Source: SAR116 cluster bacterium MED-G04 (GTDB lineage Bacteria; Pseudomonadota; Alphaproteobacteria; Puniceispirillales; UBA1172). Taken from it: DNA of 64,000 bases. Both the position numbers and the translations under genes were made by a program. The stretch is from contig NTKX01000001.1 of assembly GCA_002457135.1 (NCBI GenBank), positions 1 through 64,000 of the forward strand, in the 5' to 3' direction. Below the pieces are notes generated by a model. It was given only the letters and a program-made list of their open reading frames with translations, had not been told where the DNA came from and did no database searches. Of the stretch, positions 42,942 to 60,870 are shown in pieces; positions within the stretch are counted from its first letter, which is position 1; each line of letters starts with the position of its first letter.

Positions 42942-44134
42942 TATTTTGTCTCCGAATAGGGGTCAGCGGCATCAGCAAGGCCATCACCGACGTAAACAAA
43001 GCTCAAAACCAAGGCAATGAAGAACACAACCGGAATAAAATACCATTGGTAGTTCAGCAGCACGTCAGCATTCGTAACGCTCTGGAGCATGACCCCTAGT
43101 GAATTCACCGGATCACGCAAGCCAAGCCCGATGAAACTCAGTCCGGTTTCGAGCAACACCATATAAGGGAAGGTGATGATCAAATCGACAATGATATAAC
43201 CGGTGAAACTGGGCAGAAGATGCCGGGTTACGATGTGGAAAGAGGAGGCGCCGCATAACTGGGCCGCCAGGACATAATCCTGTGTACGTTCGGTCAAGAG
43301 ATGGGTGCGCACGCGCCGCGCCAAAGTTGGCCAGCTAACAAATCCCAAAATCGTGGCAATGACGAAAAACCGTGTCTCGGAACTCCATTCGTCAGGAATA
43401 AACGCCGCGATCGCCATGAATAGAGGGATCGCCGGAACTGTCCTGATCGCGTCGGTTATCATCTGGGTGATGGAGTCAAACAGCCCACCATAGAAGCCGG
43501 AAAACCCGCCGATCAAAAGCGCCAGGAAAAAGGAAATAAAGACACCGATTGCCCCTACGGACAGCGAGGTGTAAATCGCGTGCAACGTTCGTGAGAAAAT
43601 ATCCTTGCCTGTCGCGTCAGTCCCAAAAATATGCACCATACCGTCTTTGGCACCAAAAAGATGGCGGTCCAGAACAACGCCCGGCAGTGCGATATCAAAG
43701 CTGTCCCCGGGTAGATTGATCTCAAGATCAAAAACAGTGTATTGCCAGCTTTCAGGGAAAAAAGTCACATAGATGCGCTTGTCCGGGTTCACTTCGGTGA
43801 CCCAGCGGAAGTTGGTTTTGATTGATCGTGTCCGCTCGACGGCGTGGATAAATGGCCGGGCAGAACAGCCGTTATGATCACAAAACATCGGCACTTGAGG
43901 GGCGCCGTTCAGGTAATCTTTATTGCGCCCTGCAATTGTCGGATCATAGGGCGACAGGAAAGGCGAAAACAAACCGATCAGAATAAAGAACAGCAGAAAA
44001 TACAGCGAGGCCATGGCCGACCGTTTGCGCTTGAAGCGGGACCAGACCAGCTGCATTTGAGAGGCCGAGTAATAGCGTTCAATATCGTCTGCTATGGGGA
44101 CATGGGGTTTGGTATCAGGTGCGGGTGTCAACAT
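42941..44134 (-). CDS. Peptide-type ABC transporter permease (DppC/YejE-like)
   Basis: 397 residues, longer than the usual ~300. After the first helix (SLYFLLFFILIGLFSPFLS) comes a ~110-residue extracytoplasmic insert with two Cys (MFCDHNGCSAR), then the membrane core. HIFGTDATGKDIFSR precedes the transport helices, and the cytoplasmic EAA-type loop DYVLAAQLCGASSFHIVTRH contacts the ATPase. The long insert recalls YejE-like permeases. Ribosome site GAGG near ATG 44134. Confidence 0.93.
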   Translation of the reverse strand: MLTPAPDTKPHVPIADDIERYYSASQMQLVWSRFKRKRSAMASLYFLLFFILIGLFSPFLSPYDPTIAGRNKDYLNGAPQVPMFCDHNGCSARPFIHAVERTRSIKTNFRWVTEVNPDKRIYVTFFPESWQYTVFDLEINLPGDSFDIALPGVVLDRHLFGAKDGMVHIFGTDATGKDIFSRTLHAIYTSLSVGAIGVFISFFLALLIGGFSGFYGGLFDSITQMITDAIRTVPAIPLFMAIAAFIPDEWSSETRFFVIATILGFVSWPTLARRVRTHLLTERTQDYVLAAQLCGASSFHIVTRHLLPSFTGYIIVDLIITFPYMVLLETGLSFIGLGLRDPVNSLGVMLQSVTNADVLLNYQWYFIPVVFFIALVLSFVYVGDGLADAADPYSETK

Positions 44135-44143
44135 AAGCCTCGC

Positions 44144-45148
44144 TTAAATCATAATGCCTTTGCGGATGCGCGGGTCGAGCGCAGCAAGCAAAATATCAGA
44201 TAGTAAATTGACCGCCACGATGGAGGCCGTCAGCAGAAAGATGATCGCACCGGCCAATTGCTGGTCATTTGACCGTGCCAAGGCTTCTATCAACAGCGCT
44301 CCGGCATCGGTCAGGGTCAGGATCAGGGCAATGATGGGCAATTCATTGAAGATGCGGTTGAGGTCAAACCCCAGAGAATTAAAAATAGGGTTGAGCGAAT
44401 GCCGCGCCGGATAACGGATCAGCAAGGCCCAGCCCGTAACACCCCGAGCCTTGGCCGCGGTGACGTAAAGTTTGCCCAGTTCGTCCGAAACCAGCGCACG
44501 AACAGTCTGAAGCGCAAACGCCGTAGCCGACCAGCCAAGAATGAAAATGGGCAGCCAGACATGGCCGAGGAAATCCATGAAGCGCGCCATCGACCAGGGC
44601 GCATCACGATAATCTTCCGAAAACAGCCCTGTCATCGAATTGCCAAAATAGACGGTTGAAAACAGCATGATGCACAGTGCCAACAGAAAATTGGGCATGG
44701 CCAGGCCAAAGTAGCTCACAAAACTGAGGGTGTTTCTCAAAAATCTGTTTTCTGATGCGGCTGCCATGATGCCAACGGGCAAAGCAATCACATAAGCAAA
44801 TACCAGTGATGCCAGACAGATAGCAAGACTGAGTAAAAATTTCTCACCCAGAAGCTGGCTGATCTCAACGCGCAAAATACAACTGCGGCCAAATTCCAAC
44901 TGAAACGCATTAACAAGCCATTTCCCCCAGCGTTCAACAAAGGGGCGGTCAAGTCCGAGACGCACTCGTTCGGCTTCAATATCTTCAACGGAAATCCCGC
45001 TGCCTTGGGTGTTTTTAAACGCCAGATAGCGTTCGGCGCAATCGCCGGGCACCAGTTCCATCAATGAAAAAACGATAAAAGAAACGATCACCAGAGTGGT
45101 GAATGCCAAGAAAAGGCGCGTTGCGATGAAACTTCCAAATTGCTTCAT
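44144..45148 (-). CDS. Peptide-type ABC transporter permease (DppB-like)
   Basis: 334 residues, six helices. The N-terminal helix FLAFTTLVIVSFIVFSLMEL is followed by the family loop ELVPGDCAERY; the EAA-type loop is LYVTAAKARGVTGWALLIRY. It pairs with the next permease. A 78-bp gap separates it from the binding-protein gene upstream. Confidence 0.93.
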   Translation of the reverse strand: MKQFGSFIATRLFLAFTTLVIVSFIVFSLMELVPGDCAERYLAFKNTQGSGISVEDIEAERVRLGLDRPFVERWGKWLVNAFQLEFGRSCILRVEISQLLGEKFLLSLAICLASLVFAYVIALPVGIMAAASENRFLRNTLSFVSYFGLAMPNFLLALCIMLFSTVYFGNSMTGLFSEDYRDAPWSMARFMDFLGHVWLPIFILGWSATAFALQTVRALVSDELGKLYVTAAKARGVTGWALLIRYPARHSLNPIFNSLGFDLNRIFNELPIIALILTLTDAGALLIEALARSNDQQLAGAIIFLLTASIVAVNLLSDILLAALDPRIRKGIMI

Positions 45149-45226
45149 ATTGTTATGTTGTTTGCCCTGTTATTGGAATACGGACAAGCATGGATTATGC
45201 TTGTCCGTATTTGATTAATGGGTTCT

Positions 45227-47266
45227 TCAGTTTTCCAGCGACCACTGTGTTGGACGATATGGGTATGTCCGGTAATACTCGTAAGACGCTGTCTTGAAGT
45301 CAGCAAAATTCTTCAGAGCATTGCGGTGGTAGATTGGTGCAGATGCCTTGACCGTACCGATGAACAGCAGGTTGGATGCCATCTTTTCAACCATCTTCGC
45401 CCCGATTTCAGCAGCCTCGGGAGAACCCGGTGTGGCTGACTGAAACGCGTTGATGTCCTTGATCAAGTCCATGGCATAGGCTGGAGGTTCTACACCTTTG
45501 GCACCGTTCGAATCGATGTATTCAGCCCAAAGCATCGCAACACGGTGGCCAAAGTAGTTTTCATAAGGAGGCACCCACAACTCGTTATTGCCAAGCACGA
45601 TTGCAATCGGCTGTCCCTTTTCCCACATGCCAACATCCAGCTTGTTGGATGACTGCGCAGAGCGGTATTCATCAGGGGTAACTTCCTTGACGGTGGTTTT
45701 GATACCAACTTCAGCCCAGCTCTGTGCAACCAGTTCAACAACCTGACCAGCGATGCCCTGTGTGGAGAACTGCATGTTCAGAACAAACTGGTCGCCGTTT
45801 GGAAGCTCACGGAAACCATCACCATCCGTATCCTTCATGCCAACGCTATCAAGCAGGGCCCTGGATTCTGACGGGTTGTATTCGGTCGCATATTTCAGCC
45901 ATTTCGGGTCGGCAAAACTTGGTGCCGGTGAAAACCCGATATACTGGGTGATTTCACCCTGGCCAAAGAAAGCGACTTCGTTGATCTCATTCCGGTTGAT
46001 GGCATGCGACATCGCTTTGCGGAAGTTCAGATCACCAAAGACTTTACGCTTTTCCGTATCTTCTGATGTCAGGTTGAATGAAAACGCAGGCGCTGAAATC
46101 TGGGGGCGCAGGTCAACGGTGAAATCACCCTTTTCCTGATTTTCCAGCAGCAACGGAGCATCCGCCAACTGCAATGACTGGGCTTTATAATCCACTTCAG
46201 CATTAACCAGTTTCAAAAGGCGAACCTGATTGTCGTTGATGAAGAGTTCATTTTGCTCAGCGATGTAAGGCAACTGGTTGCCTTGTGTGTCCACCTGGAA
46301 AAAGTAAGGGTTGGCCACATAGTGACGGCCTTCGGTTGATTCCTTCACCACGATATGTGACTCCAGCGTTGGCACGGTATGCGCAGGAAGCTGGGCCAGT
46401 TTGTCCGGGTTGTTCAGCATCGGGGTGCTGGTATCGGTCCAGTCAGAGCTGCCGTAATAGGCTTTGATAACTTCATAACCGGTTTCAAAACCAGCGGCTT
46501 TCGCCAAAGCATCGGCGTTTGAATTGATGGCCGGGTGAAACTGGCCAAGGAAATGCTTAGGCTGGAAGCCTTGCGCATATGATGTCGCGAAATGCGCAAG
46601 AAGACCCGGCTTTGGTGACGGCAGGTTGAAAACAACGGTTGTCTCATCCGGGGTTTCAACGGTCATAACTTCGCCCGCAACCAGGACATAATCCTTTGGC
46701 TTTTCGAATACGTTCTTATCCATTGACAGATGATCGTACCAGAATTTCACGTCCGCCGAAGTAAAAGGGGCGCCATCTGACCACTTGTGGCCTTTGCGCA
46801 GGAAGAACGTCAATTGTGTGTAATCATCATTCCATTTCCAACCCTTGGCAACGTTGGGAACAATGGTCTGCAGGTCATCAGCGTAACGAACCAGATTGAC
46901 GTGGCGTGTTGAAAGGAAGTCTGATGTGCCGGCTTCGTTGGCATTGGACAAGGCGCGCATTGTGCCGCCATGGGCGCCAATCTTTTGGTAAGGGGCAACA
47001 ACCAGAGGTTCAGCCGGCAGACGTTCCGCCAAAGAGGGCAGATCACCATTGCCCATGATCTGGCCGTTCAGGGCAGCCATTTCGGAATTGGCTGACATGG
47101 TCAGAGAGCAGTTTGCCAGTGTTTCGAATTCTGCAAGTTCGTATTGCTGAGGGTATTGACCTGCGCCAACGCCCTTTGAGTCAGCAACAGTAACGGCTGG
47201 GCAATTTGCCATTGCCGTGGAGCTCAAAAGCGCCATCGACACAGCCATAAGTGCAATCTTTTTCAT
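45227..47266 (-). CDS. Periplasmic solute-binding protein of a peptide-type ABC transporter (family 5)
   Basis: 679 residues, larger than the usual 500-550. Signal peptide MKKIALMAVSMALLSSTAMA. A ~55-residue N-terminal extension with two Cys precedes the SBP_bac_5 fold: KWNDDYTQLTFFLRKGHKWS, GAPFTSADVKFWYD and RKAMSHAINRNEIN are family marks. Start ATG 47266 has AGAGGA upstream. First gene of the five-gene operon. Substrate unknown; peptides, modified sugars or other solutes are all possible for this class. Confidence 0.93.
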   Translation of the reverse strand: MKKIALMAVSMALLSSTAMANCPAVTVADSKGVGAGQYPQQYELAEFETLANCSLTMSANSEMAALNGQIMGNGDLPSLAERLPAEPLVVAPYQKIGAHGGTMRALSNANEAGTSDFLSTRHVNLVRYADDLQTIVPNVAKGWKWNDDYTQLTFFLRKGHKWSDGAPFTSADVKFWYDHLSMDKNVFEKPKDYVLVAGEVMTVETPDETTVVFNLPSPKPGLLAHFATSYAQGFQPKHFLGQFHPAINSNADALAKAAGFETGYEVIKAYYGSSDWTDTSTPMLNNPDKLAQLPAHTVPTLESHIVVKESTEGRHYVANPYFFQVDTQGNQLPYIAEQNELFINDNQVRLLKLVNAEVDYKAQSLQLADAPLLLENQEKGDFTVDLRPQISAPAFSFNLTSEDTEKRKVFGDLNFRKAMSHAINRNEINEVAFFGQGEITQYIGFSPAPSFADPKWLKYATEYNPSESRALLDSVGMKDTDGDGFRELPNGDQFVLNMQFSTQGIAGQVVELVAQSWAEVGIKTTVKEVTPDEYRSAQSSNKLDVGMWEKGQPIAIVLGNNELWVPPYENYFGHRVAMLWAEYIDSNGAKGVEPPAYAMDLIKDINAFQSATPGSPEAAEIGAKMVEKMASNLLFIGTVKASAPIYHRNALKNFADFKTASYEYYRTYPYRPTQWSLEN

Positions 47267-47578: not shown

Positions 47579-48697
47579 CTAGAAAGGAACGCCTGAAACT
47601 GTGCCTTCACGCGCCTGCCCGTCAGGGGTATGCACGATCAGGGGTGTGTCATGATCCCAATGCGATTTGAGGATCATTGAAAGCCCGATATTGCATTCAA
47701 GCCTTGGGGAATAAATCCCGGATGTGATCTGCCCCAGTGTTTCGCCATGAGGGGAGGTCACGGGGAACGGCTTTACGCAAGCCGGGGTTACGTCGCCGCC
47801 AAAGCGGACCCCGCTCAGCCGCTGCATCGGCCCCCCGCTGGAGGCAATTTCCATGAGGGCTTTTTTGCCGATATAGTCGAGGTCATCACCCAGATAGCAT
47901 AGGGGGCCGAAGCCGCATTCGAGCGGGTTGTTGGCGCGGGTAAATTCATTACCATAGGACATCAGGCCGCCCTCAATCCGTTCGATCAGGTTCGGGCATC
48001 CTGGCCTGATTTCAAGCGACTGCCCGGCTCCCCAGATCAGATCCCAGAGGTCTTCACCCAGATGCCCGCCCTCCAGATAGATTTCATAGCCGCCCTGCTT
48101 GCTGTAGCCGGAACGGGCAATAACCTGGCGTGTCCCCAGAACATCAAACAGCGCAAAGCCGAAATAGGGCAGATCACGAATGCCGCCGCCAAAGAGGCTG
48201 GCCATCAGCTCGGTTGCCTTTGGCCCCTGCACGGCCAGCGGGAAGACATCAGGTTCATCAACCTCGACATCCAGCGCCATGCCAATAGCAAGCCCCTTGG
48301 CCCAGAGCAGAACATCACTGTCAGCGATCGATAACCAGAACCGGTCTTCCGAAAGCTTGAGCAACACCGGGTCATTGATCATGCCCGCCCGGTCATCAAT
48401 GAGGGGGATGTAAAGCCCCTGCCCGACACGGGCCTGGCGCAGATCACGCGGGGTCATCAGCTGGACCAGCCTTGCCGCATCGGGGCCCTTTATTTCAACC
48501 TGACGCTGACACGAAACATCCCAGAGCTGAACATGCTCCCGCAAGTGCCAGTAGTCATCCTCCACCGTCGGCTCAAACGCCTTGGGCAGCAGCATGTGAT
48601 TAACCACGCTGAAGCCGCGCACACCATGATGGATCACCTTGTCGGTGTAGGGGGTGCGCCTGATGCGGCGGGACATATTCAAACCTGATGTGGACAT
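47579..48697 (-). CDS. dmdA: DmdA homologue (dimethylsulfoniopropionate demethylase/GcvT-fold)
   Basis: 372 residues, a folate-dependent GcvT-fold methyltransferase. Blocks shared with SAR11 DmdA as I remember it: SRRIRRTPYTDKV, NHMLLPKAF, EHVQLWDVSCQRQVEIKG, LVQLMTPRDL, SIADSDVLLWAKGLA, ARSGYSKQGGYEIY and GCPNLIERIEGGLMSYGN. DmdA moves one methyl group from DMSP to tetrahydrofolate, giving methylmercaptopropionate. No dmdB, dmdC or dmdD is seen here; the gene is last in an operon with a hydroxyacid oxidase, a ThDP enzyme and a transthyretin-like protein. A related sulfonium or ammonium substrate is therefore possible. Start ATG 48697; ATG 48676 has a better AGG spacing. Confidence 0.7.
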   Translation of the reverse strand: MSTSGLNMSRRIRRTPYTDKVIHHGVRGFSVVNHMLLPKAFEPTVEDDYWHLREHVQLWDVSCQRQVEIKGPDAARLVQLMTPRDLRQARVGQGLYIPLIDDRAGMINDPVLLKLSEDRFWLSIADSDVLLWAKGLAIGMALDVEVDEPDVFPLAVQGPKATELMASLFGGGIRDLPYFGFALFDVLGTRQVIARSGYSKQGGYEIYLEGGHLGEDLWDLIWGAGQSLEIRPGCPNLIERIEGGLMSYGNEFTRANNPLECGFGPLCYLGDDLDYIGKKALMEIASSGGPMQRLSGVRFGGDVTPACVKPFPVTSPHGETLGQITSGIYSPRLECNIGLSMILKSHWDHDTPLIVHTPDGQAREGTVSGVPF

Positions 48698-48736
48698 ATT
48701 ATTTTCTCAACTACTAATACAATAAATACCAATGGA

Positions 48737-49084
48737 TCAGTTTCCCCACCAGCAGGAATAATTGTGCGGGGCCATGATCACCGGGATGTGATAGCGGCCT
48801 GCCGGGTCAGGCATCCTGAAGCGGATCACGATTTCGGTCAGGAATTGCACGCCGGCTTCGGGGAGGTCAAAATCATTGAAATAATCGCCGCTGGCAATCA
48901 CCATTTCATAGCTGCCAGCCCCATCCACCTCAACCTCGGCCGACAGCCTGCCGCCAGCATCGGTTCGGGTATCCAGAACAGGGCGGCGTGTTCCATCATC
49001 ATCAATCTGTTCCAGCGTGATGCCGACATGACCGGCATGGCTGCCGTCAACGCCATTGAGCAAATGTGATGTCAGAACCGCCAT
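48737..49084 (-). CDS. Transthyretin-like protein (5-hydroxyisourate hydrolase family)
   Basis: 115 residues with the transthyretin-like fold: LTSHLLNGVDGSHAGHVGI at the N-terminus, a TDAGGRL turn, SGDYFNDF, and YHIPVIMAPHNYS at the C-terminus. True hydroxyisourate hydrolases end in the catalytic tetrapeptide YRGS; here the end reads CWWGN, so that activity is doubtful. Strong ribosome site GGGAGG. Third gene of the operon; no other urate or allantoin gene is nearby, so a purine role is not supported. Confidence 0.8.
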   Translation of the reverse strand: MAVLTSHLLNGVDGSHAGHVGITLEQIDDDGTRRPVLDTRTDAGGRLSAEVEVDGAGSYEMVIASGDYFNDFDLPEAGVQFLTEIVIRFRMPDPAGRYHIPVIMAPHNYSCWWGN

Positions 49085-49105
49085 GGTGAACCTCCCGCCC
49101 CTCTA

Positions 49106-49157
49106 TTAAATTGATGCCCTTTATTCAATTGATGCCCTCTATTCAATTGATGCCTTG
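49106..49157. repeat. 18-bp tandem repeat, three copies, across the ThDP-gene stop
   Basis: Units resembling CTCTATTCAATTGATGCC repeat three times. On the minus strand each encodes an ASIE-stop or ASI-stop ending in the same frame, so the terminal codons and stop are duplicated. Confidence 0.88.
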
Positions 49158-50881
49158 TCCCGCTTTGATGTGGTGGCCAGCACGATCGGGCTGATCACCC
49201 CCTTGACCTTGACGTTGACACAGGCTGTCTTGCCACTGGCCATGGCCCGTTTCACCGCCGGGATAATATCCTCACGCCGGGTGACGACTTCACCGTATCC
49301 GCCCAGCCCCTCAAACATGCTGTGGAAAGGGATATCCCTGAAATCGGTGGCGTAGTGCTTGCCGCTTTCAAACAGGCGTTCCTGCTGCTGGGAAATGCAA
49401 TCCAGCCCGCCATTATTGTCAATGATAACGGTGACGGGCCTGTTTTCCTGGAAAGCCGCCTCAATCGACAGCCCGCCTGACAGGAAGGCCCCGTCACCAC
49501 TGATCAGCACGATATTCCGGTCAGGGTGAACATTTTTTGCCGAGATCGCAAACGAGACCCCGACACCGAGCATGCTGAATGTCCCCGGATGCAGGATGCC
49601 GCCCAGTTTTCTGCCTTTGTGGCCAGCGATATTGACCGCGATTTCAGACCAGAAATGCGTGTTGCCGCCATCGATTACCAGCCAGTCATCGTCACTCATG
49701 GCCTCCTGAACATCGAGGGCAAGCTGCAACGGATGGATGCGCCCGCCGAAAGCCGGGTCGCTGGCCTCCTGATCGAGATCCTTCAGCATTTTTTCCACCC
49801 ATTCAGCCCGCCGCTGGCGGTTGAGATCATACCAGTCGCGGCCAAGCGTGAAATCAGGGCTGTGCTGATGCGCGATCAGGGCCTCAAGAAAGGCCCCGGG
49901 GTCACTCAGGAGGGTGAAATCAGCCGCCCGGTTGAAATCAATTTCCTCGTGCGATCCGTTGATGCAGACAAGCTCGGCTGTTTCAGGGAACAGCGGCGGG
50001 TTGCCAAAATTCATCTGGTTATCCAGGCGCGCACCCAGCATCAGCACCAGATCAGCCTCATGGAAAGCATCGGCCGAGGGGTGATACTGATGCACATCGG
50101 CAAGCCCCATATAGGCCTCGCATTCTTCGCCGAGCAGTTTCTGGTGATAGGGAATGTTGAAAATCGGGATGGCCAGCTTGCGCCCTGCCTCCTCCAGCAT
50201 CGCCTCGGCACCGGACCACCAGACACCATGCCCGCCAATCAGCACAGGCCGCCGGGCGGCGCTGACTTTATCCAGAACCTGCTGCAAGCGTGCGGGTTCG
50301 GGCCAGGCCCGGGCGGCTTTCTGCGGTGCCAGATCAAATGGCCGTTCCTGCCTGCCTGCATCCTCGGCAAAGGATGAAAACATGATATCAACAGGCAGGC
50401 TCAGGTGAACCGCACCAGGGTAGCCGTTGGTGGCCATCTTGTAGGCCCTGTCAACAAATTCATTGATGCGCTCACCATCGGTGATGGTCGCGCTGTATTT
50501 GGTCAGGGGTTCGGCAATGGCGACATCATCGATTTCCTTGAACCCGCCGGCACCCTGACGTTTCAGCGTGCTTGAACCGGTGACGAAAATAACCGGTGAA
50601 CGTTCGCCCCATGCCTCCATCATCGCCGGAACCGCGTTGGCGAAACCTTCAGGGCCGACAAGGCAGACACTGGGTTTGCGGGTGATCCGAGTGTGTCCAT
50701 CGGCGAAATGCCCTGCAATCTGTTCGTGAGGGCAGTTGATCACCTTCATCTGGCATTCCATGAACCCTTCGAGGGCAGGGTTGCAGAAACCGCCCGACAG
50801 GGTGAAAACATGCTCGATGCCCTTTTCCTGAAGCGCCCGTGCCAGCAAGGCACCCCCACGGATTTTTCGAGGACTGTTCAT
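49139..50881 (-). CDS. ThDP-dependent enzyme (acetolactate synthase/2-hydroxyacyl-CoA lyase-like)
   Basis: 580 residues in the three-domain ThDP decarboxylase/synthase layout. The N-terminal domain has the activating Glu in CPHEQIAGHFADGHTR near residue 54, with TKYSATI downstream as in hydroxyacyl-CoA lyases. The central domain contains PVLIGGHGVWWSGA. The C-terminal cofactor motif runs from GDGAFLSGG to IDNNGG. Its ATG overlaps the stop of the FMN oxidase (ATGA). Following an enzyme that makes 2-oxoacids, decarboxylation of a 2-oxoacid to an aldehyde, or carboligation, is the natural guess. It is not a close match to glyoxylate carboligase or oxalyl-CoA decarboxylase. Confidence 0.82.
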   Translation of the reverse strand: MNSPRKIRGGALLARALQEKGIEHVFTLSGGFCNPALEGFMECQMKVINCPHEQIAGHFADGHTRITRKPSVCLVGPEGFANAVPAMMEAWGERSPVIFVTGSSTLKRQGAGGFKEIDDVAIAEPLTKYSATITDGERINEFVDRAYKMATNGYPGAVHLSLPVDIMFSSFAEDAGRQERPFDLAPQKAARAWPEPARLQQVLDKVSAARRPVLIGGHGVWWSGAEAMLEEAGRKLAIPIFNIPYHQKLLGEECEAYMGLADVHQYHPSADAFHEADLVLMLGARLDNQMNFGNPPLFPETAELVCINGSHEEIDFNRAADFTLLSDPGAFLEALIAHQHSPDFTLGRDWYDLNRQRRAEWVEKMLKDLDQEASDPAFGGRIHPLQLALDVQEAMSDDDWLVIDGGNTHFWSEIAVNIAGHKGRKLGGILHPGTFSMLGVGVSFAISAKNVHPDRNIVLISGDGAFLSGGLSIEAAFQENRPVTVIIDNNGGLDCISQQQERLFESGKHYATDFRDIPFHSMFEGLGGYGEVVTRREDIIPAVKRAMASGKTACVNVKVKGVISPIVLATTSKRDKASIE

Positions 50882-52062
50882 TCTGCAATACTCCGGTTCA
50901 CTGTCCTGAGGGAAAGGTGTTCATGTGATGATGCAAGGCTGTTGCGATCAATGCTCTCAATATCGGTATGGCCGAGTAATCCCATGATTGCGCTCGCCTC
51001 ATTTCCAGTCAGATCGAGGATATCCGACAAACCCGTTGCCCCGCCAGCACCAAGGCCATACATGACACTCCGGCCCAGCATGACAAAATCAGCCCCTGAG
51101 GCAAGGGCCTTGATGACGTGTTCACCACTGCGGATACCGCTGTCGAAAATCAGCGGCATGGTATCGCCCACCGCCGCCCTGATCTTCCCCAGCGCATCAA
51201 TCGCCGGCGGGGCTGCATTGAGCTGCCGGCCACCATGGTTGGAGACATAAATGCCGTCAACGCCCATGGATTTGATGCGCACCGCATCCTCCGGGCATAG
51301 CACGCCCTTGACGACGAGCTTGCCCTTCCAGCGATCCCTCAGCCGATCAAGAAAGGCCCAGTCGGCGAGGCCCCGGCTGGCATTGCGGACAAAACGGGTG
51401 GCATGGTTGGAGGCCGCGTAATTCATCGGCCGGGGGATGCCATGGGAAAGACTGTGCATCATCATGGCAAGCGACCATCCGGGATGGGTTGCCAGATCCC
51501 AGATCTGGCGCGGCCCCCATGTCATCGGCACCTTGAAACCGTTGCGCAGGTCACGCGCCCGCACCGAAGGGATCGGCACATCCACGGTCAGGATCAGCAC
51601 CTCATAATCGGCGGCCATCGCCTTATCAACCAGCTCATCCACAAACTCAATCGACTGATCGGCATAGAGCTGGAACCAGGCATGGCCCTCGGCGCGTTCG
51701 ATGATTGTCTCAAGCGGGGATGAGGAGGCGGTTGAAACACAGAGCGGTATTCGCCTCCGCGCCGCCTCCCTTGCCATGATCATGTCCGCACCGGGCCAGG
51801 CCAGTGAACACATGCCCATGGGGGCCATCCCAAAGGGCAATCCTGCGGTTGTCCCAAGCACGGAGGTTGAGGTATCGCGTTCCGATACATCGAGCAGAAT
51901 CCGGGGCATCAGGCGGATATTATCCATCGCCTCGGTATTGAAATCACGCAGGGTTTCGTCCCCCGAAGCCCCGTCAATGAAATCAAAAATCATTCGTGGC
52001 AGACGCTTTCTGGCGCGCTTGCGGGCTTCTTCAACTGAAAACAGCGGTCGAGACAAATTCAT
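50878..52062 (-). CDS. FMN-dependent alpha-hydroxyacid oxidase/dehydrogenase
   Basis: 394 residues of the lactate/mandelate dehydrogenase and glycolate oxidase family. MIFDFIDGASGDE, LPFGMAPMGM and WFQLYADQS are FMN-domain blocks. The catalytic His lies in YVSNHGGRQLNAAPPAIDAL, and FDSGIRSGEHVIKALASGAD binds phosphate. It oxidises an (S)-2-hydroxyacid to a 2-oxoacid. The length and central segment are near MdlB/LldD. First gene of the operon controlled from the LysR intergenic region. Start ATG 52062 with GGAAAG upstream; a TTG at 52080 is less likely. Confidence 0.9.
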   Translation of the reverse strand: MNLSRPLFSVEEARKRARKRLPRMIFDFIDGASGDETLRDFNTEAMDNIRLMPRILLDVSERDTSTSVLGTTAGLPFGMAPMGMCSLAWPGADMIMAREAARRRIPLCVSTASSSPLETIIERAEGHAWFQLYADQSIEFVDELVDKAMAADYEVLILTVDVPIPSVRARDLRNGFKVPMTWGPRQIWDLATHPGWSLAMMMHSLSHGIPRPMNYAASNHATRFVRNASRGLADWAFLDRLRDRWKGKLVVKGVLCPEDAVRIKSMGVDGIYVSNHGGRQLNAAPPAIDALGKIRAAVGDTMPLIFDSGIRSGEHVIKALASGADFVMLGRSVMYGLGAGGATGLSDILDLTGNEASAIMGLLGHTDIESIDRNSLASSHEHLSLRTVNRSIAE

Positions 52063-52120
52063 ACACTTTCCATTATTCAAACCCCATTAACAAAAATTTG
52101 GATTTATAAAACAAATAAAA

Positions 52121-52139
52121 TTATTGAATAAATCAATAA
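52121..52139. promoter_or_regulatory. Candidate LysR operator 1
   Basis: TTATTGA-ATAAA-TCAATAA, a perfect 7-bp inverted repeat that fits the T-N11-A rule of LysR-type regulators. It lies between the divergent lysR and hydroxyacid-oxidase genes. Confidence 0.65.
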
Positions 52140-52150
52140 CTAAAAGTTAT
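52136..52150. promoter_or_regulatory. Candidate LysR operator 2
   Basis: ATAACT-AAA-AGTTAT, a perfect inverted repeat, also T-N11-A, centred 13 bp from the first dyad and overlapping it by a few bases. A recall/activation site pair is possible. Confidence 0.55.
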
Positions 52151-52179
52151 GATTTGTCTCACGGGGGTGATTGAAAACC

Positions 52180-53097
52180 ATGAACTTCAGGCAACTCAAG
52201 GCATTCAACAGCGTGATGAGGCATGGCACCATCACGGCGGCTGCCCATAACATGCACGTTTCCCAGCCGAGTGTCACCCGGCTGATCAATGAGCTGGAAA
52301 ATTCCCTCGGCTTTTCGCTTTTCGTTCGCCAGGGTCGCGGTATTGTCCCCACTGTTGAGGCGCGGCGGTTCCATCAGGCGGTTGAGAGCGCTTTTATCAA
52401 TATTGAACGACTTGATGAAATGGCCGCCGCTATCCGGCAAACCTCAACCGGCAAGGTTTCAATTGGTGTGATCCCGATTATCTCGATCACGCTTCTGCCG
52501 CAGATTCTGGGGCAGTTGAGGCAGACAGAAGATCAGACCCATACGGTTATCTATATGCACAACACCCCGTCGATTGTTGATGCTATCCGGTTGCAGCAAT
52601 TTGATCTGGGGATCGTGTCGCGCTCACCGCCCTATGAAGGTGTTCACACGCTGTATCAGCGAAGCCTGAATTACGTTGCGCTGATCCCGGCTGATCATCC
52701 CCTGGCTGAAAGTGACGGTCAGCTCGATCTGGCCGAAGTCGCCGGGAAGCATGAGTTCGTGACCTTTGGCAATGTCTACCCGCTGGAAATGCAGGGCATT
52801 AATCCTGCCCTTGCCGAACAGTTGCAGCAGAATGCCCGCTACAGTGTGGCCAATATGCTGCCCGCCACGGCGCTGGTGCGGGAAACGGGTGTTCCAGCCC
52901 TTGTTGATCCCTTTTCAGCGCGCATGTCGGTTGAGGCAGGCGGTGTCATGGTTCGGCCTCTGGTGCAGAAACTGCAATACCAGATCGCCATTATCACCCG
53001 GGGTGTGGACACGATGACCCGTGAAACCCGGATGCTGGCCGATGCGCTCATCAAAGCCCTCGATGATGACACAATCATCAGGTCCCTTGCCCCTTGA
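52180..53097 (+). CDS. LysR family transcriptional regulator
   Basis: 305 residues. The N-terminal winged helix reads FRQLKAFNSVMRHGTITAAA, HVSQPSVTRLINELE and LGFSLFVRQGRG. A substrate-binding domain of the periplasmic-binding fold follows from ~residue 90. ATG 52180 has GGGGGTG upstream; an earlier TTG is inside that spacing. It is divergent from the oxidase-ThDP-TTR-DmdA operon with two dyad symmetries between, so it most likely controls that operon and itself. The inducer is unknown. Confidence 0.93.
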   Translation: MNFRQLKAFNSVMRHGTITAAAHNMHVSQPSVTRLINELENSLGFSLFVRQGRGIVPTVEARRFHQAVESAFINIERLDEMAAAIRQTSTGKVSIGVIPIISITLLPQILGQLRQTEDQTHTVIYMHNTPSIVDAIRLQQFDLGIVSRSPPYEGVHTLYQRSLNYVALIPADHPLAESDGQLDLAEVAGKHEFVTFGNVYPLEMQGINPALAEQLQQNARYSVANMLPATALVRETGVPALVDPFSARMSVEAGGVMVRPLVQKLQYQIAIITRGVDTMTRETRMLADALIKALDDDTIIRSLAP

Positions 53098-53105
53098 TGA
53101 GCAGC

Positions 53106-53891
53106 CTAACGGGATGAGGTGAGCCTGAACCCGGGTTGCAGGGGTTCGGTTTTAAGCCCGGTATTGTCAACCCCTGTAATCTCAACCTCGGTATTGTCAG
53201 CATGAACCAGAAAGGCATCGCCGCCATCATCGCGGGCATGTTCAACACTGGCGACAACACCATCAATGATGTGCACCGCCACGCCATCATCAATGGCAAT
53301 CCCCGGGGCCAGCTGGCCGGTCAGGACATGATGGTCAAAGGACTGTTTGCGAGGCAGCTCGTTGCGATAGTGGGGGCAGGCACTGCCCTTGAGAAGCCCC
53401 ATCCCGGGCCATAGTGCATAGCCGTCCTCGGCTGTTCCCAGCAGCAAGTCTTCAAACCAGCAGATCGCCCCGGCACTGACCCCGGACAGGATCAGCCCGT
53501 TCCGGGCAGCACAGGCGATCGCATGGTCAAGGCCCTTTTCCTGCCAGAGGGTGAGCATGGCTGATGTGGTGCCGCCGCCGACATAGACGATATCCAGCTC
53601 AGACAAAAACGCCGCCGCCATTTCTGCATCGGCTGTCATTGGCAGGTGGGTGGCCGATGCGCAATCCCGAAACCGCTCATGAAAAGCGGTGATACGGTCC
53701 GGATGATCATTGCTGGCATGGCCTATATAGCCAATCCTGACCGATGGTGCAGGACCGGCGAGGGCAAGCAATCTGTCCTCCAGCACGGCATCTTCAGGCC
53801 AGCCATCCCCGGGGTGGGTGAAACCGCCACCGCCTATGGCAAAAACCTGAACGGATGGTGACGGACTGGTGGTCAAATTCCCGCTCCTCAT
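53106..53891 (-). CDS. Peptidase family S51 (dipeptidase E-like)
   Basis: 261 residues. The nucleophile elbow GVSAGAICWFEDLL and the glycine-rich IVYVGGGTTSAML are S51 marks; the N-terminal VFAIGGGGF strand also fits. Relatives cut Asp-X or Glu-X dipeptides or cyanophycin-derived dipeptides. Position next to a peptide ABC transporter suggests use of imported peptides. Weak ribosome site at ATG 53891. It converges on lysR with an 8-bp gap. Confidence 0.85.
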   Translation of the reverse strand: MRSGNLTTSPSPSVQVFAIGGGGFTHPGDGWPEDAVLEDRLLALAGPAPSVRIGYIGHASNDHPDRITAFHERFRDCASATHLPMTADAEMAAAFLSELDIVYVGGGTTSAMLTLWQEKGLDHAIACAARNGLILSGVSAGAICWFEDLLLGTAEDGYALWPGMGLLKGSACPHYRNELPRKQSFDHHVLTGQLAPGIAIDDGVAVHIIDGVVASVEHARDDGGDAFLVHADNTEVEITGVDNTGLKTEPLQPGFRLTSSR

Positions 53892-54136: not shown

Positions 54137-55618
54137 ATGATAAAATTGTTTATTGCGGCAGCCATGACGATCGTGCTTTCCGGGACAACGGCAATCGCCG
54201 CCCCGAATGGTACGTTCAGGCAAGCTCACGAGTACGGTTATGGCGATAAGTCGAGCCTTGATCCGGCATCGCGTGGCCGTGTCATGCAGATCACCGAAAA
54301 ATTGATGAGCCGTCTGATCCGGCCTGACATGAAAGGGTCACCAAGCCCTGATCTGGCAACATCGTGGAGTTCCAACGATGAGGCAACGGTATGGACACTC
54401 AATCTCCGTGAAGGCGTCAAATTCCATGACGGCAGCGGTTTCGATTCAGGTGATGTGATCTACACGTTCAGCCGTGTGCTGGACCCTGAAAACAAGTCAC
54501 CGGCACGGTCAGCGATCAAGATGATCGAAAAAATGGAAGCACCGGATGACATGACCGTGAAATTCACGCTGTCGACCCCGTTTGCTGATATGCCTCTTCA
54601 GCTGATGGATTACCGGCTCCGGATCATTCCTGAAAATTCGGGGGACAGCATCGCCACCAGCGGCATTGGTACCGGCCCGTTCAAGCTGGTTTCCTATGAT
54701 GCGGCTGGCGTGACCAAGCTCGAAGCCAACATGGATTACTGGGAGGGTGCGCCCGGTGTGGCCAAGATGGAAGTCATCGGGATCGGTGATGGCCAGGCCC
54801 GCATGCAGGCCCTGCTGGGTGGCCAGATTGATTTCGAAAACACCGTCACCAATCAGCAGAAGCCGATGTTCGCCAGCAGCAACAAGTTCAAGATGATGGA
54901 AGTGCCAACCGGCAACTGGCGTGGTCTTGTGTTCCGCACGGACGTTGCCCCCTTCACCGATGTTCGCGTGCGTCAGGCCGTGCGGATGGCGGCTGACCGG
55001 GAAGAGCTGGTCAAGCTGATCATGGGCGGTGCCGCCACGGTTGCCTGTGACACGCCGGTCAAGCCTGATGATCAGTATCGCGCTGACATCAAATGCCCGC
55101 AAGATGTTGCCGGTGCGAAAAAGCTGCTCGCCGAGGCAGGTTTCCCCGATGGTATCGATGTTGAAGTCTACGTTGCCACCCTTGAGCCAACATGGCCTAT
55201 CCTGGCTGAAGCCTATCAGCAGCAGGCCGCCAAGGCTGGCATCAGGGTGACCATCAAGCAGGTTCCATCAGACGGTTACTGGAGCGATACATGGATGCAG
55301 AAGACGGTATCCGCAACGCGCTGGAACGAACGTCCGGCGGATTCAGCCCTTCATGAGATTTACCTCTCAACCGCGAAGTGGAACGAATCCTACTACAATG
55401 ATCCGGCGTTTGATTCACTCCTTGGCGAAGCCCGGCGTGAGCTGGATTTCAACAAGCGCAAGGCACTCTATGTCAAGGCGCAGGAGCATCTGCATGACAC
55501 CGCCGGCACGCTTATCCCTTATCATGTGTCCAAGCTCTATGTGATGAATGCCCGGGTGGATGGTATCGACCCTGTCGAAAACCACACCATTCGCTGGCAT
55601 AAGGTCACCGTGAACTAG
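54137..55618 (+). CDS. Periplasmic dipeptide-type solute-binding protein (family 5)
   Basis: 493 residues. Signal peptide ending near GTTAIAAPNG. Family 5 marks: WTLNLREGVKFHDGSGFDSG, VIYTFSRVLDPEN, GTGPFKLVSYD and VRQAVRMAADREELV. Ribosome site GGGAGGAA before ATG 54137. First gene of a four-gene operon (binding protein, two permeases, fused ATPase). A stable stem-loop follows the gene, a layout that often protects a binding-protein mRNA so it is made in excess. Substrate likely short peptides. Confidence 0.94.
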   Translation: MIKLFIAAAMTIVLSGTTAIAAPNGTFRQAHEYGYGDKSSLDPASRGRVMQITEKLMSRLIRPDMKGSPSPDLATSWSSNDEATVWTLNLREGVKFHDGSGFDSGDVIYTFSRVLDPENKSPARSAIKMIEKMEAPDDMTVKFTLSTPFADMPLQLMDYRLRIIPENSGDSIATSGIGTGPFKLVSYDAAGVTKLEANMDYWEGAPGVAKMEVIGIGDGQARMQALLGGQIDFENTVTNQQKPMFASSNKFKMMEVPTGNWRGLVFRTDVAPFTDVRVRQAVRMAADREELVKLIMGGAATVACDTPVKPDDQYRADIKCPQDVAGAKKLLAEAGFPDGIDVEVYVATLEPTWPILAEAYQQQAAKAGIRVTIKQVPSDGYWSDTWMQKTVSATRWNERPADSALHEIYLSTAKWNESYYNDPAFDSLLGEARRELDFNKRKALYVKAQEHLHDTAGTLIPYHVSKLYVMNARVDGIDPVENHTIRWHKVTVN

Positions 55619-55640
55619 GCCGCGATAAGGCTCTATCTAT

Positions 55641-55691
55641 TGATGGGCCAGTGACGAACCCGGAACAACCCGGGTTTGCGCTGGCCCATCA
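55641..55691 (+). terminator. Long stem-loop between binding protein and permease genes
   Basis: Outer arms TGATGGGCCAG (55641-55651) and CTGGCCCATCA (55681-55691) are perfect; inner arms AACCCGG and CCGGGTT continue the stem. No T-run follows, so partial termination or mRNA stabilisation is likelier than full termination. Confidence 0.75.
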
Positions 55692-55730
55692 GCACTGTCT
55701 GAATATTTCCATCCTTCAGGAAGACAACCC

Positions 55731-56690
55731 ATGTTGATGATGCTGATCAGAAGAATAATGCTGGGCATTGTGACGGTCAGTCTTGTATCCCTGATCATCT
55801 TCGCCGGTGTTGAAATTCTCCCCGGTGATGCCTGCACCCAGTATCTTGGCGAATACCAGGCTGATGATGAATTGCTGGCCCAGTGCCGCAAGGACCTTGA
55901 TCTCAACAGGCCCGCACTGGAACGGTTCCAGGAATGGGCGGGGGGTGCTGTCACCGGCGACCTAGGCACGGCTGTTGATGGCAAGACCAAGATCAGCACC
56001 ATTGTCGGTGACCGGCTCAAAAACTCGCTCCTGCTGGCTTTCTGCGCCATGATTGTCGGCGTGCCGCTGGCCCTGTTGCTTGGCGTTATCACCGGATTAT
56101 GGCGTGACCGCAAACCTGATCTCATCGCATCAACCCTGGCCATTTTCGCCATGACCATTCCTGAATTTGTCTCGGCAACCCTGCTGATCCTGATCTTCAG
56201 CATATGGCTCGGCTGGCTGCCCGGCATTGTGTTGACTTCAGCGAGCGCGCCTGCGTCTGAATTTTTCCCTGAAATCCTGTTGCCGGTGATCGTGCTTTCG
56301 CTGGTGATGTGCGCGCATATCATGCGCATGGTGCGATCATCGGTCATCGAGGTCATGGAAAGCGACTATGTGCAGATGGCAACCCTGAAGGGCGTGCCGT
56401 ACTGGCGCATGGTGTTCAGCCATGCCCTGCCCAATGCTCTCTTGCCAGCGATCAATGTTGTTGCCCTCACCATCGCCTGGCTGCTTGGCGGTGTTGTCGT
56501 TATTGAGGTGGTGTTCAATTACCCCGGGCTGGGCCGGTTGATGATCGACTCGATCTCTGACAGGGACCTGCCGGTGGTGCAGTCGATCGCCCTCATCGTT
56601 GCCAGTATCTATGTCTGTGTCAATCTGGCGGCTGACCTGTTGACCATGCTGGCCAACCCGAAACTGCGCACCATTTACACGAGGAAATGA
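55731..56690 (+). CDS. Dipeptide-type ABC transporter permease (DppB-like)
   Basis: 319 residues, six helices. VEILPGDACTQYLGEY after helix 1 and the EAA loop DYVQMATLKGVPYWRMVFSH are typical, followed by NYPGLGRLMIDSISDRDLP. Ribosome site AGGAAG; ATG 55731, with in-frame ATGs at 55737 and 55740. Its stop overlaps the next ATG (ATGATGG). Confidence 0.94.
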   Translation: MLMMLIRRIMLGIVTVSLVSLIIFAGVEILPGDACTQYLGEYQADDELLAQCRKDLDLNRPALERFQEWAGGAVTGDLGTAVDGKTKISTIVGDRLKNSLLLAFCAMIVGVPLALLLGVITGLWRDRKPDLIASTLAIFAMTIPEFVSATLLILIFSIWLGWLPGIVLTSASAPASEFFPEILLPVIVLSLVMCAHIMRMVRSSVIEVMESDYVQMATLKGVPYWRMVFSHALPNALLPAINVVALTIAWLLGGVVVIEVVFNYPGLGRLMIDSISDRDLPVVQSIALIVASIYVCVNLAADLLTMLANPKLRTIYTRK

Positions 56691-57574
56691 TGGCAGCAAC
56701 CACCGCAACGTCAATGGTATCCGGCAACCGGGTCGTGACTGTCCTAAAGGATCTGGCATCGCGGCCATCGGGGGCTATCGGCCTGACGCTGGTGATATTC
56801 CATGTCGCCCTCGCCCTGGTCAGCCCCTATATCGTGCCTTTTGACTACAAGTTGCAGAACTCCAGCCTGATGCTGACCGGCCCTGATGCTGTTCACTGGC
56901 TGGGCGCGGATCACCTCGGCCGTGATGTCTTTTCCCGAACCCTGATGGGCGGGCGTGAGGCCCTGCTGGTGACAGGGGTGGCCACGCCACTGGCTGTTAT
57001 TTGGGGCGGGTTTATCGGGATACTTTTCGGGCTGGTGGGCGGCCGCCTTGATGAAGTGCTGATGCGGGTTGTTGATGCCTTTCTGTCCCTGCCATGGATT
57101 CTCAAGATGCTGGTGCTGATCGTGACCTTTGGCACCGGGGTTGAGGTGCTGATCCCGACGCTTGCCTTTTTCTATGGCATTCCGGTGATCCGTATTGCCC
57201 GGGCGGCAACCCATGATGTTATTGCCCGTGATTTTGTCTGGGCCGCCAAGGCACGGGGGCATAGCCGGATCAGCATCATCTGGCGCGAATTGCTGCCCAA
57301 TGTCCTCGATACACTGATGGTTGAGGGGGCCATGCGCTGGTCGTGGATGCTGCTTGCGTTTTCGTCCCTGTCCTTCCTCGGGTTTGGTGTATCACCGCCA
57401 ACGCCTGACTGGGGGCTGATGATTTCCGATGCCCGCGGTTTCATGTCTTTCGCTCCATGGGGTGTGATCGGGCCTGTGATTGCCCTGTCATCGCTGATCA
57501 TCGGGATCAATCTGACCGCTGATGCCCTCGCCAAAGCACTGGGCATTGACCGCGCACAGAAAGCCCCGATGTAG
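56687..57574 (+). CDS. Dipeptide-type ABC transporter permease (DppC-like)
   Basis: 295 residues. HWLGADHLGRDVFSRTLMGG is the conserved DppC block; EAA loop DFVWAAKARGHSRISIIWRE; PPTPDWGLMISDARGF near the C-terminus. It lacks the large periplasmic insert seen in the homologue at 42941-44134. Coupled to the upstream permease. Confidence 0.95.
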   Translation: MMAATTATSMVSGNRVVTVLKDLASRPSGAIGLTLVIFHVALALVSPYIVPFDYKLQNSSLMLTGPDAVHWLGADHLGRDVFSRTLMGGREALLVTGVATPLAVIWGGFIGILFGLVGGRLDEVLMRVVDAFLSLPWILKMLVLIVTFGTGVEVLIPTLAFFYGIPVIRIARAATHDVIARDFVWAAKARGHSRISIIWRELLPNVLDTLMVEGAMRWSWMLLAFSSLSFLGFGVSPPTPDWGLMISDARGFMSFAPWGVIGPVIALSSLIIGINLTADALAKALGIDRAQKAPM

Positions 57575-57575
57575 C

Positions 57576-59591
57576 ATGACCACTCCGTCCTTTATTGATG
57601 TCCGGAACCTGTCAATCGGCTATACCAGCCGTGCCGGAGAGACCGTGAAGGTCCTGCGTGATGTCAGCCTGACCATCAATCGGGGGGAGAGTGTCGGCCT
57701 GGTTGGGGAGAGCGGGTCGGGCAAGAGTACCCTGGCCCTCGCCGCCCTTGGCTACTTCAAGCGGGGGCTGAGGGTGCTTGATGGCCAGATCCATTTTGAC
57801 GGCATCGATATGCTTGATCTCGGCCGTGATGATATCCAGAAAATCCGTGGCGGCAGGCTGGCGCTGATCCCCCAGAATTCGGGCCAGTCCCTGACACCGA
57901 CGTTAAGGATCGGCCAGCAGGTGGCTGAGGCCTTGCGCCTGCATAGCGAGCTTGAGGCCGATGAATTTGATCACCGTGTGGTGGAACTGCTGACCCAGGT
58001 TCGCCTGCCGGACCCGGCCGCGCTGATCAGCCGCTATCCGCATGAATTATCAGGTGGCCAGCAGCAACGTGTCGCCATTGCTATGGCCCTGGCGGGCCAG
58101 CCTGATGCGCTGCTGCTTGATGAGCCGACCACCGGCCTCGATGTCACCACCCAGGCGCATATTCTGGAATTGCTCCGTGATCTGGCCAGTGACCGCAATA
58201 TGGCGATGCTTTACGTCAGTCATGATCTCGGCGCGATTGCCCGTGTCTGTGATCGGGTTGTTGTCATGTATGCCGGTGAAATCGTATTGCAGGGCAGTGC
58301 CAGGCAGGTCCTGAAATCCCCCCGGCATCCCTACGCGCATGGGCTGCTGGCCTCCATCCCCCGGCTCAGCCAGCAGAGCCTGCCGGTGGCGCTTGATGGC
58401 CGTCCCCCCATGCCGGGGGAGATGATCAACGGCTGTGCCTTTGCTGATCGATGCGGGATTGCCGACAGCACATGCACGGCATCACCGCCGCCGCTGGTTC
58501 CCATCGATACAGGGGAGCATGTCCGGTGTTTCCATCCCGGCAAGATCAGCCAGCTCCCCAGGGCCAGCAAAACAGCCGCGCGGAAAAAACCCTCCGCATC
58601 TGGGAAGCCTGATGCTGCCCTGGTCATGGATGACCTCTCCATCACTTACGCCAAGCCTGATTTTCTGGCGTCACTGCTGACCAGCCGGAAAGACCCGCCC
58701 GCAACGGTTGAGGGGATCAACATCACCATCGTCAAGGGGGAGACGCTCGGCCTTGTGGGGGAGAGCGGGTCAGGCAAATCGACGATCCTCAAATCCATTG
58801 CCGGGCTGATTTCACCCAAGACAGGCAGCATCGCGCTGGAGGGACAGTCCCCCCTGACCGCCAAGGTGGAAGACAGGCCAGCCGTCAACCTGCGGCAGAT
58901 CCAGCTGATTTTCCAGAACCCTGATGACAGCCTCAACCCGCGTCACACCGTGGCGCAGATTCTGGCCCAGCCGTTGCGGCTTTATTTCAGGCTTTCCGGT
59001 GATGATCTGCGGCAACGCAGCATTGAGCTGCTGGAAAAAGTCAGGCTGGGTTCGCACTATCTCGAACGCCTGCCGAGCCAGCTTTCCGGTGGGGAGAAAC
59101 AGCGTATCGCCGTGGCCCGTGCCTTTGCCGCCGAACCTGAAATCGTCCTCTGTGATGAAGTGACATCGGCGCTGGATGTATCGGTCCAGGCGGCGGTACT
59201 CAACCTGCTCAATGAGCTGAAAACACAGCAGCAGACAACGTATATTTTCGTTTCGCATGATCTGGCGGTGGTGAAGGCGATTTCGGATCGTATCGCTGTT
59301 CTCTATCAGGGCCGGCTCTGTGAAATTGGCCCGGTTGACGCTGTCTATAAGCCGCCGTTCCATCCCTATACCGATGTTCTGCTGGGTGCTGTGCTGGAAC
59401 CTGACCCTGAAAAGGCCCCCAAGCTGAGCGCGGATGACGTGGTTGAACTGTCACCACCGGCGCAAGGTTGCCCGTTCCAGCGGCGATGCCCCAAAAAGAT
59501 CGGCACAATCTGTGAAACCGATACACCCCCCGCCCAGCAAATGGGGGGAGGCCATGTGATCAACTGCCATATCCCGGCCGATGATCTGTAG
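57576..59591 (+). CDS. Fused dipeptide ABC transporter ATPase (DppD-DppF in one chain)
   Basis: 671 residues with two complete ATPase units. First: Walker [16 protein letters not shown] near residue 43, signature LSGGQQQRVAIAMAL, Walker B ALLLDEPTTGLDV. Its Cys-rich tail (GCAFADRCGIADSTC) ends the DppD-like half. A linker near 330-350 follows. Second: Walker [15 protein letters not shown], signature LSGGEKQRIAVARAF, Walker B EIVLCDEVTSALDV, tail GCPFQRRCPKKIGTIC. ATG 57576 lies one base after the permease stop. The fusion fixes the two ATPases in a 1:1 ratio. Confidence 0.95.
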   Translation: MTTPSFIDVRNLSIGYTSRAGETVKVLRDVSLTINRGESVGLVGESGSGKSTLALAALGYFKRGLRVLDGQIHFDGIDMLDLGRDDIQKIRGGRLALIPQNSGQSLTPTLRIGQQVAEALRLHSELEADEFDHRVVELLTQVRLPDPAALISRYPHELSGGQQQRVAIAMALAGQPDALLLDEPTTGLDVTTQAHILELLRDLASDRNMAMLYVSHDLGAIARVCDRVVVMYAGEIVLQGSARQVLKSPRHPYAHGLLASIPRLSQQSLPVALDGRPPMPGEMINGCAFADRCGIADSTCTASPPPLVPIDTGEHVRCFHPGKISQLPRASKTAARKKPSASGKPDAALVMDDLSITYAKPDFLASLLTSRKDPPATVEGINITIVKGETLGLVGESGSGKSTILKSIAGLISPKTGSIALEGQSPLTAKVEDRPAVNLRQIQLIFQNPDDSLNPRHTVAQILAQPLRLYFRLSGDDLRQRSIELLEKVRLGSHYLERLPSQLSGGEKQRIAVARAFAAEPEIVLCDEVTSALDVSVQAAVLNLLNELKTQQQTTYIFVSHDLAVVKAISDRIAVLYQGRLCEIGPVDAVYKPPFHPYTDVLLGAVLEPDPEKAPKLSADDVVELSPPAQGCPFQRRCPKKIGTICETDTPPAQQMGGGHVINCHIPADDL

Positions 59592-60471: not shown

Positions 60472-60833
60472 CGTGACTTCGCCTTTGCCATCAGCGCGAC
60501 AGCCCTGGTCTGGGCAAACGGATTCTGATACAGCGTGTCGTGACTTTCCACACCGACGTCGAGAACGCAATCTTCCCTGGGCTGGGCAACGCACAGCAGG
60601 ATGTAGCCGTCTTGAGACTGCCGCTTGTTAAGGGCCGTGGCGTTGGGCTGACGGACCTTTCCCGATATCAGCTTGGCGGCACAGGTAATACAGCCGCCAT
60701 ACCGGCAGGCAATTGGCAGATCGTGTCCTGCGGCCTCAAAAACATCGATAATCTTGTCCTGATCACCGACCTTGAGCGTGGTGTTATCCCGGTTCCGCAA
60801 GGTGACGTTGAACGTGGTTTTTGAACTGGTCAT
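60468..60833 (-). CDS. [2Fe-2S] plant-type ferredoxin
   Basis: 121 residues. Cluster ligands CRYGGCITC (C-X4-C-X2-C) near residue 43 and the fourth Cys in YILLCVAQP about 33 residues on. The fold is the beta-grasp type of plant ferredoxins and oxygenase reductase domains. Start ATG 60833; a TTG precedes it. Between mtoX and DUF2182, it is a probable electron carrier of the same pathway. Confidence 0.92.
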   Translation of the reverse strand: MTSSKTTFNVTLRNRDNTTLKVGDQDKIIDVFEAAGHDLPIACRYGGCITCAAKLISGKVRQPNATALNKRQSQDGYILLCVAQPREDCVLDVGVESHDTLYQNPFAQTRAVALMAKAKSR

Positions 60834-60841
60834 CAACTGAG

Positions 60842-60870
60842 TAAAAGGGGCCTGTCCGAAAACAGGCCCC
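60842..60870 (-). terminator. Terminator-like hairpin between mtoX and ferredoxin
   Basis: On the minus strand GGGGCCTGT and ACAGGCCCC form a 9-bp stem with a 6-nt loop, followed by only TTTTA. It probably reduces transcription of the downstream genes instead of stopping it. Confidence 0.65.

Follow-up and report, generated by a model that had tools for sequence, protein, structure and literature searches.

Which compound is handled where a homologue of the demethylase DmdA stands in one row with an FMN-dependent 2-hydroxyacid dehydrogenase, a ThDP-dependent enzyme and a transthyretin-like protein is the question raised by this locus of a SAR116 bacterium, whose lineage, together with SAR11, turns over much of the dissolved organic carbon of the ocean. 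The first-pass annotation of the window (the whole stretch of 64,000 nucleotides analysed here) had placed an uncharacterised operon of these four genes under a LysR regulator at 47579–53097. All five genes are indeed present and intact, and their families have been confirmed with Pfam and NCBIfam, while the extent had been drawn too narrowly, as the conserved neighbourhood also takes in an S51 hydrolase (53106–53891) and an ABC transporter (54137–59591). The features are the following:

47579–48697, minus strand: DmdAL, DmdA-family (GcvT-fold) predicted tetrahydrofolate-dependent demethylase paralogue (NCBIfam NF009133, 560 bits)
48737–49084, minus strand: transthyretin (TTR) / 5-hydroxyisourate-hydrolase (HIUase)-fold hydrolase (Pfam PF00576, 60.8 bits)
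49139–50881, minus strand: ThDP-dependent enzyme of the oxalyl-CoA decarboxylase / 2-hydroxyacyl-CoA lyase / acetolactate synthase family (Pfam TPP_enzyme N, M, C)
50878–52080, minus strand: FMN-dependent 2-hydroxyacid dehydrogenase (FMN_dh) of the mandelate/lactate-dehydrogenase type (Pfam PF01070, 405.6 bits)
52111–52154, no strand: conserved LysR–operon spacer block, probable operator/promoter (alignment of nine divergent spacers)
about 52180–53097, plus strand: LysR-family regulator, divergent from the operon (Pfam HTH_1, LysR_substrate)
53106–53891, minus strand: S51 (peptidase E / cyanophycinase-like) hydrolase, Ser motif GVSAGA (Pfam PF03575, 105 bits)
54137–55618, plus strand: family-5 (peptide/opine/nickel type) substrate-binding protein (Pfam SBP_bac_5, 277.7 bits)
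55731–57574, plus strand: two ABC permeases, order kept beside the operon
57522–59591, plus strand: ABC transporter ATPase of 689 aa, kept beside the operon

The genes for FMN_dh and the ThDP enzyme overlap by four bases (ATGA), and spacers of 54 and 39 bases follow between ThDP and TTR and between TTR and DmdAL, respectively; FMN_dh may start at the TTG of its reading frame or, likelier, at an ATG at 52062. At 49103–49152, at the stop codon of the ThDP gene and just past it, an 18-base unit that repeats the 3′ end of this gene stands three times in tandem. Regarding conservation, an alignment of the ThDP enzyme has been used to scan the GTDB species genomes, which has yielded 505 relatives, and neighbourhoods have been taken for the best 80. 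Among these best 80 of 505, DmdAL has been detected in 79, TTR in 78 and FMN_dh in 78, and the order FMN_dh–ThDP–TTR–DmdAL is kept in nearly all of them across several orders and families; near-identical SAR11 single cells make up many of these loci, so that far fewer than 80 of the cases are independent. The hosts comprise SAR116, SAR11, an AG-891-type alphaproteobacterial group, pond and lake Hyphomicrobiales, a Methylocystis MAG, Pelagibius and a gammaproteobacterial MAG; the same gene order occurs in Rhodobacteraceae genomes, and the operon is also present in MAGs from freshwater and lakes. Median intergenic gaps across the conserved loci are 1–3 bases, which argues against separate promoters for each gene, and since both order and tight spacing are conserved, the arrangement cannot be attributed to chance. 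Judged from these features, FMN_dh, ThDP, TTR and DmdAL form a real operon, and the co-occurrence of the gene set in other genomes has turned out to be widespread.

Within the order of the window, 14 further genomes have full-length DmdAL matches of 60–79% identity, to which two split matches are added; operon-type DmdAL is present in at least 15 of the 61 genomes searched (the window's own included), and a type with 46–54% identity in about eight. These loci keep the order FMN_dh–ThDP–TTR–DmdAL; some of them have a divergent LysR gene, and in most of them S51 adjoins with the family-5 ABC transporter beyond. In evenly drawn samples the ThDP orthologue is rare, occurring in 2 of 399 genomes of the phylum (the window's own included) and in 3 of 246 genomes of the order of G728, and a search for plasmid copies of the operon has returned none. 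The most persistent pair is ThDP–TTR, which is found with neither FMN_dh nor DmdAL nearby in G423, its genus, and G919; the core can therefore split, and not every step is obligatory.

Orthologues of LysR stand beside the operon in SAR116 (66–72% identity), Pelagibius (52%) and Rhodobacteraceae (49%), and an alignment of nine SAR116 spacers between LysR and the operon has revealed a common block, ACAAATAWAATTATTG..., at 52111–52154. From the two dyad operators suggested previously, the one at 52121–52139 (TTATTGA-N5-TCAATAA, TTATTGAATAAATCAATAA) lies inside this block and has been retained, whereas the one at 52136–52150 shows no conservation among the nine spacers and has been dropped. Equally good dyads arise in 74 of 500 shuffles of the AT-rich spacer; the aligned block probably represents the operator or promoter.

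The identity of the demethylase is central to the question. Operon proteins score 523–580 bits against the NCBIfam DmdA model NF009133 (cut-off 410), and candidate true DmdA proteins of the same order reach 500–508 bits, so that annotation cannot separate the two; the gcvT model is missed by the window protein (118.9 bits, cut-off 235.85). DmdAL resembles the proven SAR11 DmdA (PDB 3TFH) in its fold (TM 0.92) and is 45–46% identical to it, with Glu204 and Tyr206 kept. The Roseobacter DmdA rows for the tree have been picked by a following AcuI-like gene, an arrangement of dmdA and then acuI having been described for R. pomeroyi (PMC3338564). Without these rows the operon proteins form one clade (99/97), and with them a clade (99/94) within a DmdA superclade (100/100), beside or within true DmdA (91/66 for sister versus nested branching). 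Their nearest relatives are 3TFH and the Roseobacter proteins, and more distant GcvT-type rows fall outside the superclade; the protein first called a DmdA homologue is hence placed with DmdA and not with GcvT or sarcosine enzymes. The GcvT-type O-demethylases LigM and DesA and the TMAO demethylase are likewise THF-dependent demethylases of the same fold, whereas DmdAL belongs to the DmdA superclade and is about 16% identical to LigM.

Within that superclade, the operon proteins miss the residue pattern common to both DmdA lineages. Tyr, Tyr and Glu of Roseobacter as well as SAR11-type DmdA have been switched to Phe, Val and Gln (Y29F, Y32V and E63Q; 29, 32 and 64 in window numbering) in 29–31 of 31 operon proteins, and by alignment these positions belong to the counterparts of the T-protein motifs FAGWEMP and DVSHMG, which presumably line the active site. 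A Trp called key for DMSP (W171 in the alignment of PMC7487153) has been matched to Trp197 by its spacing to the Glu and Tyr named alongside. The change W197Y has been rejected as a sign of lost DMSP binding, because 25 Roseobacter DmdA-type proteins, most of them followed by an AcuI-like gene, have Tyr as well; with Tyr197 in both groups, Trp197 is no diagnostic marker. By tree and residues, DmdAL is assigned to a separate branch of the DMSP-demethylase family. That it is simply another DMSP demethylase inside an operon of unrelated function is very unlikely: the NCBIfam score and the shared Tyr197, by which the DMSP box is not visibly lost, would agree with this, but the constant co-inheritance with the same three enzymes, the three switched positions and the placement among FMN_dh, ThDP and TTR genes rather than beside acuI or DmdB/C/D genes argue against it. 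Moreover, a dmdA-like gene at 51–52% identity is present in addition to the operon copy in G728, G1051 and G1031, so that the two are not simply interchangeable. SAR116 has at least two further DmdA-like clades (L157–L174, about 40–44% identical) outside the DmdA superclade.

The three partner enzymes are likewise offset from their described relatives. FMN_dh, with (S)-mandelate dehydrogenase as a close PDB relative, keeps the catalytic Tyr139, Arg174, Lys258, His282 and Arg285 and has a long loop like that of the membrane-bound type; in contrast to (S)-mandelate and L-lactate dehydrogenase, Phe takes the place of the Tyr for the substrate carboxylate (equivalent to Tyr24 of glycolate oxidase) in every in-operon copy covered except one, and the scores stay below the NCBIfam cut-offs. 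The ThDP enzyme is 72–88% identical across relatives with an invariant catalytic Glu53, and shares its fold and its best PDB match (HACL/Oxc, 203 bits) with 2-hydroxyacyl-CoA lyase and oxalyl-CoA decarboxylase, yet it lies under the cut-offs of all families shown (best NCBIfam match 267 bits, cut-off 587), and its operon holds no CoA ligase or transferase; neither an aldehyde dehydrogenase nor a CoA ligase for its product has been found in the window operon. For TTR, a structure model matches the HIUase fold, and His7, Arg46 and His99 are present in 73 of 73 proteins, but the C-terminal YRGS of 5-hydroxyisourate hydrolase is replaced by W-W/Y-S/G (x-W-W-S/G, or W-Y in G423 and L208), the score against TIGR02962 is 64.3 bits (cut-off 87.45), and no urate pathway genes adjoin. 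This W-type TTR occurs in about 6 of 385 genomes of an even class sample.

Beyond the four genes, the module is larger than first described, as S51 and the peptide/opine-type ABC transporter co-occur with the operon. S51 and orthologous transporter genes are linked to it in SAR116, SAR11, Hyphomicrobiales and Rhodobacteraceae, S51 lies directly upstream of FMN_dh in many loci, and the family-5 substrate-binding protein, with AgaA (6hlx) as the nearest PDB chain, has orthologues beside the operon that are 54–90% identical. Downstream of DmdAL, the same strand carries another peptide-type ABC transporter (40924–47266), which is not conserved beside the operon in relatives and has been left outside the module. 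In Pelagibius, G1028 and G022 a TRAP transporter is linked to the operon (L117:12080–14992, L209:5986–7251, L219:40–1305), with DctM proteins 73–76% identical, and may possibly serve as an alternative importer. Often a second methyltransferase, belonging to the MttB, GcvT or homocysteine type, adjoins as well, or else an NAD-linked 2-hydroxyacid dehydrogenase, which is Ldh_2 in SAR116, Hyphomicrobiales and Rhodobacteraceae loci; an ApbA-like reductase lies near the operon in L117. A fused indolepyruvate/2-oxoacid:ferredoxin oxidoreductase of the PRK13030 type stands at opposite cluster ends in G001 and G011 (L021:4956–8396, L213:2801–6223).

Taking these parts together, we favour, at a probability of roughly 0.55, a catabolic operon under LysR control whose target is a methylated compound, either itself a 2-hydroxyacid or a source of one. 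The recurrence of 2-hydroxy/2-oxoacid enzymes (Ldh_2, ApbA-like) and methyl-transfer enzymes beside the operon, and the conserved catalytic residues of TTR and FMN_dh, have been counted for this reading; a role in biosynthesis or detoxification is possible as well. In the best reading of the sequences, the substrate would be a methylated, amide- or ring-containing 2-hydroxyacid whose methyl goes to tetrahydrofolate. Following enzyme families and synteny, the ABC importer would bring in a small molecule resembling a peptide or an opine, S51 would hydrolyse an amide bond, and DmdAL would pass a methyl group to tetrahydrofolate, giving 5-methyl-THF. FMN_dh would then oxidise the 2-hydroxyacid to the 2-oxoacid with electrons passing to quinone, the ThDP enzyme would decarboxylate or cleave the 2-oxoacid, and the HIUase-like protein may hydrolyse a lactone or cyclic amide that arises either ahead of the ThDP step or following it. 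In some lineages the second methyltransferase (MttB, GcvT-type or homocysteine-type) probably takes another methyl group.

The nature of the methylated group is where several routes have to be weighed. A trimethylammonio (betaine-like) 2-hydroxyacid or amide, from which MttB, the variable second GcvT-type neighbour (GcvT2) or a homocysteine methyltransferase takes one methyl and DmdAL another, is a tentative proposal of low probability. MttB adjoins the cluster in SAR116, Pelagibius and L053, with annotated trimethylamine and glycine betaine methyltransferases as nearest solved relatives, the homocysteine methyltransferase stands beside the operon in the L095 type, and the freshwater hosts agree with such a substrate; MttB is, however, absent from the window locus and from the cluster in many relatives (its homologues in G000 lie elsewhere), no corrinoid protein has been seen in the cluster, and we know of no precedent for DmdA-type demethylation of a quaternary amine. 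The same MttB-type neighbours suggest onium substrates and so count against an N- or O-methylated ring (ureide, hydantoin or mycosporine-like) that the HIUase-like protein opens, S51 splits at an amide, DmdAL demethylates and the ThDP enzyme cleaves as a dicarbonyl. Such a ring, which we consider improbable, would account for the kept His-Arg-His with its new C-terminus and for ThDP–TTR, the tightest pair, which persists without the rest and stands by a type II asparaginase in two genomes, while LigM and other O-demethylases share the GcvT fold and the loss of Glu63 may suit a less charged substrate; the core lacks an enzyme for ring formation or oxidation, such as a urate oxidase or an oxygenase, and no such cluster has appeared in the literature searched. 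Asparaginase itself is limited to one genus and has been discarded as a general partner.

A sulfonium compound was the speculative suggestion of the first-pass annotation, namely a DMSHB-like dimethylsulfonio-2-hydroxyacid which DmdAL would S-demethylate to MTHB, FMN_dh would oxidise further to 4-methylthio-2-oxobutyrate and the ThDP enzyme would decarboxylate to methional, with methanethiol as the end product. Three enzymes matching three consecutive steps, the recurring 2-hydroxy/2-oxoacid enzymes and the proximity of DmdAL to proven SAR11 and Roseobacter DmdA speak for it. Directly past the window transporter (59635–63749) lie a PpoB2 copper chaperone and a gene of the SBP56/methanethiol-oxidase family on the minus strand, followed by a type III sulfide:quinone reductase-like gene on the plus strand. 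The distance between SBP56 and the operon is 3 kb in L209 and about 20 kb in G011, but in six relatives (G001, G016, G022, G029, G039, G045) the two are unlinked, and the linkage has been counted as weak support for sulfur chemistry at most. FMN_dh enzymes are usually L-specific, whereas algal MTHB and DMSHB have the D form. Furthermore, the TTR hydrolase, S51 and the peptide/opine-type importer are left without a role, and the ABC importer described for DMSP relies on another binding protein, DmpX (PMC10030565). Given the two hydrolases, the importer, the switch of the DmdA-invariant Tyr29, Tyr32 and Glu63, and the freshwater and lake hosts, DMSHB is just one possible substrate, and the sulfonium route appears doubtful.

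Returning to the catabolic operon for a methylated 2-hydroxyacid, a published description of the gene set has not been found in the open literature, which leaves out most subscription journals, nor does a matching cluster appear in the open literature on mycosporine, homarine, DMSHB and MttB pathways. A riboflavin/lumichrome pathway with a ThDP heterocycle decarboxylase (PMC12746152) has been dismissed as an analogue, as beyond ThDP chemistry it has no gene set in common. The SAR11 aminomethyltransferases SAR11_1265 and SAR11_1303 had been noted earlier without assigned function (PMC3160333). We see about even odds that the operon encodes a so far undescribed catabolic pathway for an abundant non-DMSP methylated marine metabolite in SAR11, SAR116 and others, in which a DmdA paralogue supplies one-carbon metabolism and annotation-based surveys register it as DMSP demethylase. 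As DmdAL passes the curated DmdA model, part of the annotated dmdA may not represent DMSP demethylation, which may be relevant to the disagreement between reports on dmdA in SAR116 (PMC8547437 versus PMC12262181), and the conserved operon points to a directly testable substrate class. As a minor observation, G919 holds a thiolase–TTR–ThDP cluster with ECH and OsmC genes, near which 105 residues (L206:14977–15291) are 55% identical to SAR11 GcvT2, perhaps as a remnant.
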